A stretch of 39,547 bases of DNA from Verrucomicrobiaceae bacterium (GTDB lineage: Bacteria; Verrucomicrobiota; Verrucomicrobiia; Verrucomicrobiales; Akkermansiaceae), in contig JAPOLH010000004.1 of NCBI GenBank assembly GCA_029977225.1, forward strand, positions 1-39,547. The letters are read 5' to 3'. How positions within the stretch are numbered: position 1 is the stretch's first letter; every line of letters begins with the position of its first letter. The notes under the pieces are model-generated. The model ran no database searches and was not told where the DNA came from. It saw only the letters and a program-made list of their open reading frames with translations. The translations under genes were made by a program, and so were the position numbers. Shown one piece after another: positions 4,539 to 8,615 of this stretch.

Positions 4539-5285
4539 TTATGGCCCTGCGAAGCGGTAATGGCCTTCGATGCTAAAGTCGAAGAGCACATTTTCCCACT
4601 TCGGCTTTTCATCGAGGTGATGGACGACCCAAGGTTCGTGCGAATTAGCGCCAGGTCCCGGCACAATGATGCCGATGTGTTTTTCCGCACTTGCAAGCGA
4701 CCATACGACGATGTCACCGGGCGCGTAGTCTCTAGGATTGCGTGATGGCTTGAGTACTTCGCCATTACGCTCGAAGAATCGCTGAAGGTTTGCCACGCGT
4801 CGGTGATCGATGTGCGGGTCAGGGCCTGCCGCATTCCACAACTGCGGATATCGATTGAAGTGAGTCTTCATGTCTTCGTGCACCAGTGCCTGAAGGTCGG
4901 TGCCAAGTTGGCGCATCGAACGGACAATCAAATCCGATGCCATGCCCTTGTCCGCGTTGATGTCGCCCATGGGAAACGCGATCTTGTAGTAAGAAGAATC
5001 CATCGTGACATCGCGGCTCGTGTAATCGAGTGCCGCCAATGCTAGTTGCGAACCCGGCTGCGAAGATTTCTCAAGCTCCGCCGCGACCAGCGTTGCCTGC
5101 TTGAGCGAGGCGGTCTGCTGTGTCGCCCGCACACTTGGAATGAGTGGCTTGCCAATCCACACGCCGATGCTGGTCGCGATTAGGACGATTACCCAGCCAC
5201 CAACCCGATTGCGACGCTTCTGCAGGCGCGGGGGCGGGCCGATGTACTCAATCGTCTGATAAAATATGGTCTTTTTGCGGGCCAT
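4539..5285 (-). CDS. Membrane-anchored DUF1287 protein lacking the usual Cys
   Basis: This 248-residue protein has one transmembrane segment at about 29-46 and then a DUF1287-type domain at about 80-246. Recognisable family segments are MGDINADKG, LVHEDMKTHFNRYPQLW, IDHRRVANLQ, YAPGDIVVW, KHIGIIV and EGHYRF. As I recall, DUF1287 (YijF-like) belongs to the NlpC/P60-related papain-like fold and usually has a Gly-Val-Cys-Thr-Asp motif. Here that site reads GMASD, with Ala116 in the Cys position, while His203 and His222 remain. It may therefore be a non-catalytic, ligand-binding envelope protein. The gene is convergent with map and divergent from the pseudokinase gene. Its function is not known. 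Confidence 0.8.
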   Translation of the reverse strand: MARKKTIFYQTIEYIGPPPRLQKRRNRVGGWVIVLIATSIGVWIGKPLIPSVRATQQTASLKQATLVAAELEKSSQPGSQLALAALDYTSRDVTMDSSYYKIAFPMGDINADKGMASDLIVRSMRQLGTDLQALVHEDMKTHFNRYPQLWNAAGPDPHIDHRRVANLQRFFERNGEVLKPSRNPRDYAPGDIVVWSLASAEKHIGIIVPGPGANSHEPWVVHHLDEKPKWENVLFDFSIEGHYRFAGP

Positions 5286-5587: not shown

Positions 5588-6886
5588 ATGAACGACCGAT
5601 TCCAGATTGATGATTTAATGTCTCAAGGGCCCGAAGGGATTGTTTTTCGTGCCACAGATAGGCAGACGAGTGCCGCGGTTGCCTTGCGCCGATATTTTCC
5701 GTTTGGGAAGGGCTGTGGTGGACTCGATGAGGACGCTCGCACGGCCTATGCGGAATCACTCGAAGGTTTGTCGTCACTCAAGCATCCATGCCTGCGTCAG
5801 GTGCTCGGTGGTGGCTGTGATGAGATTGATCATCTTCCTTATATTGTGACCGAATGGGTTGATGGTGAGTCGGTAGAGATGCTCGTTTCGCACGCGATGC
5901 TGGGTTTGGATGATGTCACGAATTTGCTCAAAAGTGCGTTGGATGCATCGCTATGGTTGTCGGATGTTTTTCAAAAGGAATCGCTGTGGATCGAAACCGA
6001 GCTTTCAACCGTGATTCGGAGAAGCTCAGAAAATTCGGGTGATTTTATTTTTTGGATCTCCCCCATCAAATGGTTGGGGGTCACGGGGCCTGATCACGAT
6101 ATGAAGCAGCTTGCGGGATTTGCGACGCAACTTCTGCATGGGGTGCCAATGATGGTGGGAAATGCAAAACAAACTGGAATTGTTCGTTGGATCGAGTGGC
6201 TGCGTGCCGCGCCAAAGACAGCCACGCTCACGCAAGCTCGCGAAAAGCTTACCAATCATTTGCAGTCAACAGGTGGAGCACCGATGCGCAAGTTGATCAC
6301 GCCGCCCAAACATGAAAAGCCGAACTCCCAGAGAAAATCGCACCGAAGGCCGGGAGCCATCTTGTATGCGAACCTTTTGCTTGGCATGTTGGTGATTGGA
6401 CTTGGCTACTACTCACATCAAGTGAAACAAGCGCGAGTCGATGGCAAAAAACCAGCCGTCCATCACAAGGCTACGAAGCCACTCGCAAAAAATACTGCAA
6501 ACAAGAACGAAAAAGCCCCACGAGCAGATGTCGCTTTCGCAGCAGATGAAGCAGCCCCAGGTGAGTTGATCGAGTGGGACAATCACTCGAAGCTGTTGGC
6601 AAACAACCGGCGCAAAGTCACGGTCGAAGGGCCTGCGGGAAGAATCGACCAGTCGAAATCTGGCAAGACTCTTTACCTTGTTTTTTTCGGCGGCGATAAG
6701 CCCGAGTCATCGCGCGTGGGCATTCGATTGGGCAAAGGCTCACCTGATAAGATGAGGTCCGAGCTCGGTGCTTTTGTCGGCAAGAAAATCCGTGCGTCCG
6801 GTGAGGTGAAAAAAGAAATGCAAGGGAACTTGTCGAGCCCGGCAGTCATGATCAACGATGTGTCTGCGATACAGATCATCGATTGA
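5588..6886 (+). CDS. Pseudokinase-like membrane protein with C-terminal OB-like domain
   Basis: I do not recognise a named family for this 432-residue protein. Residues 5-100 resemble the N-lobe of a Ser/Thr kinase: a degenerate glycine loop (MSQGPEGIVFRATD, 11-24), VALRR where VAIK is expected, an AESLEGLSSLKHP helix and a hinge-like YIVTEWVDGES. The catalytic HRD and DFG motifs are not present; the corresponding region (about 130-165) reads LWIETELS and ISPIKWLG. A transmembrane segment lies at about 258-276, followed by a Lys/Ala-rich linker and a beta-rich domain at about 328-432 resembling a small OB fold. It is probably a catalytically dead, membrane-tethered sensor or scaffold. The rsmC-like gene starts six bases downstream. 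Confidence 0.7.
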   Translation: MNDRFQIDDLMSQGPEGIVFRATDRQTSAAVALRRYFPFGKGCGGLDEDARTAYAESLEGLSSLKHPCLRQVLGGGCDEIDHLPYIVTEWVDGESVEMLVSHAMLGLDDVTNLLKSALDASLWLSDVFQKESLWIETELSTVIRRSSENSGDFIFWISPIKWLGVTGPDHDMKQLAGFATQLLHGVPMMVGNAKQTGIVRWIEWLRAAPKTATLTQAREKLTNHLQSTGGAPMRKLITPPKHEKPNSQRKSHRRPGAILYANLLLGMLVIGLGYYSHQVKQARVDGKKPAVHHKATKPLAKNTANKNEKAPRADVAFAADEAAPGELIEWDNHSKLLANNRRKVTVEGPAGRIDQSKSGKTLYLVFFGGDKPESSRVGIRLGKGSPDKMRSELGAFVGKKIRASGEVKKEMQGNLSSPAVMINDVSAIQIID

Positions 6887-6892
6887 AACCCC

Positions 6893-7900
6893 GTGGAGAA
6901 TTTGGCGCTTGAGACTCTGATGCTGGCCTATGAATCGCTCGAAGCCGAGCGGCCCGAACGCATGTTGTTTATCGGCGCTCAGTCTCACACAGCTTTGTGC
7001 GGGCAAGCGGGACTCATTGGTTGGCAACCGCTCAAGCCGTTGGCAGACGTTTGGGACAAAGCAGGATTTTCCCGTAATGACACATTGCCCGAGGGTAAAT
7101 GGCCATGGGTGATGGTGCTGCCGCAAAAATCACGCGATGAGACGCTGCTGTGGTTTGCTCTTGCCCGCGATCGAGTTACAGCAAGCGGGAAATTACTCGT
7201 GGCCATGCCCAACACCGCGGGGGCCTCACGATTTGAAAAGGAACTCGCACGCGCCACCGGGCGTGTTGATTCGATTCAAAAACACAAGTGCCGTGCCTTC
7301 ATTGCCACCGACGACGGGTCATGGAATGAAGCGATCTTTGCCGAATGGCGCGAGCTTGGCCATGAACGCAAAATTGAATGCACGGAATATGTCACGCAGC
7401 CCGGCATCTTCAGCAGTGCGCATGTAGATCCTGGATCAAAGTTGCTTGCGCTGCATTTGCCTAAAAGCCTGCGCGGCTGTGTCGCCGACCTCGGCGCCGG
7501 CTGGGGTTATCTATCCGCATCCGCGCTCGATGCTTGCGATGGCATCATGCACATCGACCTTTATGAGGCCGATGCGAGAGCGCTTGATTGCGCACGCAAA
7601 AATCTCACAAGGCATGCAGAAAAGGTCAGCTTCCACTGGCACGATGTCACGAAGGGCCTCACGGAAAAGTACGATGCGATTCTCATGAATCCGCCTTTCC
7701 ACAGCGGGCAAGCGACTGATGTTGATCTCGGCCGCGCCTTCATCGGCCGCGCCATTGAGGCACTTCGTCGTGGTGGAAAATTGCTGCTCGTCGCCAACCG
7801 TCAATTGCCCTACGAAGCGGTGCTCGAATCCAAGGCGCTTGCTTGGCGTAAAATCGCGGAGGACTCGACCTACAAAGTCTTGCTCGCAGACAAACGCTGA
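6893..7900 (+). CDS. rsmC: RsmC-like 16S rRNA (guanine-N2) methyltransferase
   Basis: This 335-residue protein has the two-domain RsmC layout: a degenerate N-terminal methyltransferase-like half and a C-terminal class I SAM-dependent domain. The SAM-binding motif is ADLGAGWGYLS (198-208) and the catalytic N-P-P-F motif for exocyclic amino methylation is at 266-269, followed by the family-typical GGKLLLVANRQLPYE. E. coli RsmC makes m2G1207 in 16S rRNA; the related RlmG modifies 23S rRNA, so the exact target is inferred. The GTG start at 6893 is six bases after the upstream gene. rsuA follows 13 bases later, so two small-subunit rRNA modification genes are adjacent. Confidence 0.85.
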   Translation: MENLALETLMLAYESLEAERPERMLFIGAQSHTALCGQAGLIGWQPLKPLADVWDKAGFSRNDTLPEGKWPWVMVLPQKSRDETLLWFALARDRVTASGKLLVAMPNTAGASRFEKELARATGRVDSIQKHKCRAFIATDDGSWNEAIFAEWRELGHERKIECTEYVTQPGIFSSAHVDPGSKLLALHLPKSLRGCVADLGAGWGYLSASALDACDGIMHIDLYEADARALDCARKNLTRHAEKVSFHWHDVTKGLTEKYDAILMNPPFHSGQATDVDLGRAFIGRAIEALRRGGKLLLVANRQLPYEAVLESKALAWRKIAEDSTYKVLLADKR

Positions 7901-7913
7901 ACGCACTTTTTTC

Positions 7914-8615
7914 ATGAAACTCGTCAAACTCCTTGCCAACCTCGGGTATGGCTCGCGTCGCGAAGTGCAACGTTTGATTCGTTCCGGCGCGGCGACCAAC
8001 CTTGATGGTGAAGTGCTCGCCGATCACAGTGCTACGCCGCACGCTGAAATACTTTTTCGTGGTGAACCGCTGGATCCGGAGTTTCCTCTCACGATCATGC
8101 TCAATAAGCCCGATGGCTACACCTGCAGCGCCGACGATCCGGGATCAACCGTCTATGACCTTTTACCCGAGCGCTTCGCTCACCGGAACCCAGGCCTTAA
8201 TTGCATCGGCCGACTCGACAAGGACACCACCGGGCTCTTGCTGATGACCGATGACGGCAAGCTACTGCACAAAATCATCCACCCAAAGTCCGCCTGCCAC
8301 AAAGTCTATCGAGCCACGCTCGCACGACCACTCGAAGGGCATGAAGAAGAACTTTTCGCCTCCGGTTCGCTCATGCTCAATGGCGAAACCAAACCCTTGC
8401 TGCCCGCTCATTTCGAAAAACTCGGCGAATGCGAGGGGCTCGTCACCTTGCACGAAGGCCGCTATCACCAAGTCCGCCGCATGTTCGCCGCCGCCGGCAA
8501 TCATGTCGTGGCTCTCAAGCGCATCTCCATCGGCGGATTGAAATTGCCAGCTGATTTAGAAGAAGGAGAGTGGTGCGCACTTTCCGCAAATGAGATGAAT
8601 CAGCTTTTGAGCTAG
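7914..8615 (+). CDS. rsuA: 16S rRNA pseudouridine(516) synthase, RsuA family
   Basis: The protein of 233 residues has an N-terminal S4 RNA-binding domain (about 1-48, KLVKLLANLGYGSRREVQRLI) and a pseudouridine synthase domain with the catalytic aspartate Asp102 in IGRLDKDTTGLLL. The LNKPDGYTCS and HEGRYHQVRRMFAA segments are typical of the RsuA/RluB/E/F group. Lack of a long C-terminal basic tail favours RsuA, although RluE/F-like 23S targets cannot be excluded. I chose the ATG at 7914, where the S4 domain starts; the frame is open upstream only as a shadow inside rsmC. The gene is convergent with sanA, with 12 bases between stop codons. Confidence 0.88.
   Translation: MKLVKLLANLGYGSRREVQRLIRSGAATNLDGEVLADHSATPHAEILFRGEPLDPEFPLTIMLNKPDGYTCSADDPGSTVYDLLPERFAHRNPGLNCIGRLDKDTTGLLLMTDDGKLLHKIIHPKSACHKVYRATLARPLEGHEEELFASGSLMLNGETKPLLPAHFEKLGECEGLVTLHEGRYHQVRRMFAAAGNHVVALKRISIGGLKLPADLEEGEWCALSANEMNQLLS

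Follow-up and report, generated by a model that had tools for sequence, protein, structure and literature searches.

The open reading frame at positions 5588-6886 of the window (the whole stretch of 39,547 nucleotides analysed here, a single contig from a genome of 1.75 Mb) is a member of a real, conserved gene family whose products join a kinase-like domain, a hydrophobic segment and a C-terminal OB fold. The kinase-like domain has lost its catalytic motifs, and the family seems to be related to the known bacterial scaffolding pseudokinases without having been described so far. The reading that we hold with moderate confidence is that of a bitopic inner-membrane pseudokinase with a periplasmic OB domain, acting as a receptor-like scaffold. 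The family conservation, the motif loss, the kinase homology, the C-terminal OB fold and the hydrophobic segment are all computed and are presented below.

Gene structure and domain architecture

The gene is complete (Table 1), with the same starting methionine in its homologues and just three open codons upstream of the ATG. The features listed in a preliminary description of this DNA, namely a degenerate glycine loop, a Lys-to-Arg change, missing HRD and DFG motifs, a hydrophobic segment and a beta-rich C terminus, were all seen, and the pseudokinase-TM-OB order that it proposed is supported by profile, motif, hydropathy and model evidence. A Pfam search with the window protein returned no family at E 0.1, and a PH_11 match (E up to 1) was discarded as chance. 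Neither repeats, nor an Rfam match, nor a convincing promoter or terminator pattern were found in the region.

Table 1. Coordinates of the pseudokinase gene, its parts and its neighbours in the window
Feature	Position	Strand	Basis or remark
DUF1287 gene, divergent upstream neighbour	4539..5285	-	Pfam PF06940 6e-53; apparent N-terminal membrane anchor
Complete pseudokinase-TM-OB gene	5588..6886	+	432 aa plus stop, ATG start
Pseudokinase domain, predicted cytoplasmic, residues 1-228	5588..6271	+	hhalign, PDB profile, Foldseek
Degenerate glycine loop SQGPEGIVF, residues 12-20	5621..5647	+	
Beta-3 Lys position, Arg34 (R34) in window	5687..5689	+	
HRD position, Trp-Ile-Glu (W134-I135-E136)	5987..5995	+	Profile alignment to kinases
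DFG position, Ile-Phe-Trp (I154-F155-W156)	6047..6055	+	HMMER alignment to S. aureus Stk1
Membrane helix (predicted by hydropathy), residues 256-274	6353..6409	+	Positive N-side flank
Variable low-complexity linker, residues 275-327	6410..6568	+	Family alignment
C-terminal OB-fold domain, residues 328-432, predicted extracytoplasmic	6569..6883	+	AlphaFold, Foldseek, VIA
rsmC-like methyltransferase	6893..7900	+	Adjacent in window's clade only
rsuA-like pseudouridine synthase	7914..8615	+	Adjacent in window's clade only

Kinase homology and fold

Profile comparison with kinase families and structure prediction, both proposed in the preliminary description, point to a kinase-like N-terminal region. 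Comparison by hhalign with nine intact kinases of the order gave 99.3% (E 2e-20) over residues 1-150, a profile built from 24 members matched Stk1/PknB of S. aureus in the PDB (E 3e-5, residues 3-158), and the single window sequence matched the PknB N-lobe in NCBIfam (E 4e-6, with a score of 26 against a cut-off of 450). The profile alignments to kinases span the HRD position, and the alignment to Stk1 also reaches the DFG position (IFW, residues 154-156). A kinase N-lobe had been claimed for this protein; homology to the N-lobe is indeed found, but it runs beyond the N-lobe and through the HRD position (WIE, residues 134-136).

The AlphaFold model of residues 1-237, obtained from an alignment of four sequences (the window and related loci), is of low confidence (pLDDT 48) and shows secondary structure in kinase order, with alpha-F/H/I-like helices after the DFG position. 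All 50 of the 50 Foldseek matches listed for this model were protein kinases, and the best VIA match had a Z of 8.7 at an rmsd near 5, on account of which only the fold class is claimed. Structures of MviN and EssB were absent among the fold matches listed, which for so weak a model has no bearing either way. From the homology and the model together, the region is better read as a two-lobe pseudokinase, compact and lacking an activation segment, than as an N-lobe alone, its parts being an N-lobe, alpha-E, a catalytic-loop remnant and alpha-F/H/I-like helices. The reduced C-lobe appears to keep the helix order of kinases, its details being unsure because of the pLDDT of 48.

Loss of catalytic residues

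Catalytic residues were counted over 64 pseudokinase members, that is, 68 rows minus four intact kinases. Of the glycine loop, the third glycine alone is kept across the family. The beta-3 Lys position is occupied by Arg in 57 of the 64 members and by Lys in none, the helix-C Glu is present in 0/64 (the window has S57 at this position in the HMMER alignment), and DFG is likewise found in 0/64. Trp stands at the HRD His position in 62/64 members and Glu or Asp at the HRD Asp position in 58/64, so that the motif in place of HRD is mostly W-[VIL]-[E/D]; the catalytic Asn is gone in nearly all members. The family thus combines the marks of bacterial pseudokinases: kinase-fold homology and loss of the beta-3 Lys, HRD and DFG. 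To judge from these residues, the kinase-like domain is probably catalytically dead.

On a kinase-region tree with 27 rows, a single clade with 100/100 support unites the pseudokinases and separates them from the active kinases. Given this single clade and the catalytic loss in 64 members, the loss looks old and maintained; the lineage seems to have lost catalysis a single time and to have kept the kinase fold. Neither the kinase tree nor the OB tree supports a particular descent from STK-TM-OB kinases or a particular origin of the OB domain.

The acidic residue retained at the HRD Asp position in 58/64 members raises the question of a non-canonical activity, such as nucleotide transfer or hydrolysis, carried out through the W-[VIL]-[E/D] motif, and altered chemistry is known in other kinase-fold proteins (SelO and SidJ). 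However, the beta-3 Lys, the helix-C Glu, nearly every catalytic Asn and the metal-binding DFG Asp have been lost jointly, and bulky Trp residues have replaced the His of HRD and the Gly of DFG, which makes such an activity unlikely.

Membrane segment and OB domain

A hydropathy maximum lies at the matching place in all 24 aligned members, and the flank N-terminal to the hydrophobic segment carries a net positive charge in every one of them (24/24); the kinase side is therefore predicted to lie inside. The C-terminal domain was modelled by AlphaFold with a pLDDT of 77 as beta-beta-beta-alpha-beta-beta, the five-stranded topology of an OB fold with a helix between strands 3 and 4. Its best Foldseek and VIA matches were the anticodon-binding OB domains of aaRS (VIA, AsnRS OB domain: Z 9.7, rmsd 3.6, 98 aligned), and other OB proteins among the matches listed were CcmE and a Klebsiella lipoprotein. 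Nucleic-acid binding is common, though not universal, among OB folds. The domain is probably periplasmic, because related OB domains also make up small proteins that seem to begin with a signal peptide (L132, L134, L136 and L137, recognised by eye rather than with a predictor). Two or more OB copies are present in L049, L106, L122 and L133. The first of these (L049:7563-10310) is a 916-aa member with several OB copies and an inserted LamG/concanavalin-like stretch, recognised by eye.

Distribution and selection

Members were found at 48 loci in the window's genus (47 genomes), in most of the genomes sampled there, and further members occur in neighbouring genera. A search with a C-lobe signature (240 genomes from the order, 387 from the phylum) found members in one GTDB family only, which we infer to be Akkermansiaceae from the named relatives, these being Akkermansiaceae and Verrucomicrobia MAGs; one divergent member (L024) has a record that gives its family as Verrucomicrobiaceae. 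Several genus genomes of high estimated completeness yielded no copy of the gene, which is therefore probably dispensable. Two pseudokinase genes (L040 and L041) occur in one genome (G002), each beside an ABC-2 permease-like gene, and at two other loci (L030 and L078) the gene is apparently broken or frameshifted in the assemblies.

Whole-gene dN/dS against the close relative G030 was 0.16-0.24, with 0.08-0.28 in the kinase part and 0.11 in the OB domain. Against L021 it was 0.16 in both kinase lobes and 0.03-0.06 in the OB domain, these ratios being rough with synonymous sites near saturation; the highest values were found in the TM/linker stretch. All domains are thus under purifying selection, which is strongest on the OB domain. 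The spread across genera, the purifying selection and the kinase matches noted above (E 4e-6 and 3e-5) show that the family is more than chance.

The lower values in the OB domain than in the kinase domain in the comparison with L021 could be taken to mean that the periplasmic OB domain alone matters and that the kinase-like part is decaying and serves as an anchor. We give this little credence: dN/dS in the kinase part is well under 1, and the family-specific motifs are nearly invariant despite an overall identity of about 30%.

Comparison with known systems

Transmembrane pseudokinases are a known kind, and a 2025 review of bacterial pseudokinase families makes no mention of Verrucomicrobia or Akkermansia (PMC12599244). 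The preliminary description knew of no characterised protein with the present domain order, and none was found in the literature searched (partial coverage), but the architecture does have parallels, in STK-TM-OB kinases and in transmembrane pseudokinases. By analogy, the protein most likely works in the manner of the mycobacterial MviN or of EssB/YukC.

The C-terminal pseudokinase of MviN (ActPs3) in Mycobacterium tuberculosis recruits FhaA and works as a scaffold (PMC12599244). As in MviN, all catalytic motifs of the window family are degraded, the activation loop is deleted and bulky aromatics lie in the ATP site (PMC12599244); a membrane segment likewise lies C-terminal to the pseudokinase (by hydropathy, in 24 members here) and a further binding domain is present. 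Unlike the window family, MviN has a large extra N-terminal part and a carbohydrate-binding domain. Moreover, ActPs3 is mainly actinobacterial and carries the motifs VALT and Lsidhpsr, against VALR and W-V-E-T here, as compared by the table of the review.

EssB/YukC of type VIIb secretion is a single-pass membrane pseudokinase that serves as a structural hub (PMC12599244). It shares with the window family a degraded glycine loop, the loss of all three motifs and a reduced activation loop. EssB/YukC is a component of Firmicutes secretion and, to our knowledge, has no OB ectodomain. Genes for type VII or other secretion systems were not recognised among the neighbours inspected, not all of which are annotated. 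GLW pseudokinases are membrane-associated and mainly proteobacterial, with a C-terminal TM region (PMC12599244), and they too have a Trp within the motif replacing HRD; they have GLW at HRD and poly-Leu at the beta-3 Lys, however, where the window family has W-[VIL]-[E/D] and VALR, which sets it outside that group.

Among active enzymes, the intact STK-TM-OB kinases L123, L125, L127 and L129, from other families of the order, have the same domain order and a related OB domain, but they keep HRD and DFG, and the window-family pseudokinases form a separate clade from them on the kinase tree, which gives no supported sister pairing between the two. PknB/Stk1 PASTA kinases match the kinase region most closely in sequence and likewise place the kinase inside and an ectodomain outside; they are active enzymes with PASTA ectodomains, in contrast to the OB domain of the window family.

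Candidate partners and proposed function

We infer, beyond the domain order, the topology and scaffolding role of the protein as well as a ligand, a partner and any role in envelope homeostasis. The OB domain would bind a ligand or a protein outside the cytoplasm, and the pseudokinase domain may bind a cytoplasmic partner through aromatic motifs at or around the former active site, where FFPFG, WVET, FWISP and GLGxWxKWLR are conserved. Candidate partners are a DUF3482 GTPase, where it is encoded next door, and alternatively the membrane Ser/Thr kinase and the FHA protein that the cell itself encodes.

With PF00069, one intact Ser/Thr kinase (L161) with an apparent membrane segment was found in the window's genome; one intact match above the cut-off was obtained in each of the small genomes G000 and G292, G030 had one further match that was weaker, and 61/61 genus genomes sampled had Pkinase matches. 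An FHA search of the window's genome found one FHA-domain protein (L166), also with an apparent membrane segment. At this locus (G000:C87) the FHA protein spans 1430-2097 and is followed from 2161 by a D-Ala-D-Ala carboxypeptidase-like gene, recognised by eye. The set of kinase and FHA protein recalls MviN-PknB-FhaA (PMC12599244), as a resemblance only. With an intact kinase at hand in these genomes, the protein might, instead of scaffolding others, form a dimer with the intact membrane Ser/Thr kinase of the cell and tune it as a pseudo-receptor; the two genes are unlinked, however, and such kinases occur throughout the genus whether the pseudokinase gene is present or not, so that the chances of this explanation are slim.

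Neighbouring genes were counted over the 48 loci, the counts being lower bounds because of contig ends. A CBM9-like gene of about 200 aa (e.g., L026:9010-9615) lies directly upstream of the pseudokinase gene at 40/48 loci, but a search of the window's genome did not find it; 7 of 11 members had weak CBM9_2 matches, and no solved structural relative of the protein was found. A DUF1287 gene, of a domain of unknown function placed among papain-like amidases (PMC10318531), is divergent upstream at 33/48 loci. A DUF3482 GTPase gene follows directly downstream at 11/48 loci (L027, L029, L031, L032, L033, L037, L042, L066, L071, L079 and L082), overlapping the pseudokinase gene by 4 bp in L027, L029, L031 and L042, and in G031 it still adjoins the pseudokinase gene, though the latter has moved out of the CBM9-like/DUF1287 locus. 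In the window's genome, the PF11981 (DUF3482) search gave no match but was uninformative, as the controls were likewise silent, and a query with the GTPase protein gave a weak, unconvincing match to the GTPase domain only. Beyond the genus the neighbourhood is not conserved, and the neighbours look housekeeping-like (by eye, from their first residues). A bolder proposal, in which a periplasmic OB domain senses the envelope and the pseudokinase scaffold signals to the adjacent DUF3482 GTPase as a new receptor class in a kinase-free pathway, is in our judgement quite doubtful.

The adjacency of rsmC and rsuA on which the preliminary description built a link between envelope sensing and ribosome maturation is real in the window but occurs at 3/48 loci only (the window, L021 and G030, all close relatives). 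That the protein regulates both genes and so couples the state of the envelope to ribosome maturation is very improbable, even though the three genes are codirectional at these loci and a few bases separate the pseudokinase gene from rsmC, since rsmC occurs in 57/61 genus genomes sampled and adjoins the pseudokinase gene in one clade only, where co-transcription is enough to explain the adjacency. With adjacency so limited, rsmC and rsuA were rejected as functional partners, and the link is not upheld; it fails by the very condition set in the preliminary description, namely that the gene should be conserved near rsmC in related genomes.

The study of bacterial pseudokinases is young, and only a few of them, such as MviN and EssB/YukC, have been characterised. 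To these the window family adds an OB ectodomain of which we found no description, in a lineage that apparently lost catalysis once. If the proposed signalling is true, the family would be a tractable system in which to study how a dead kinase passes information across a membrane.
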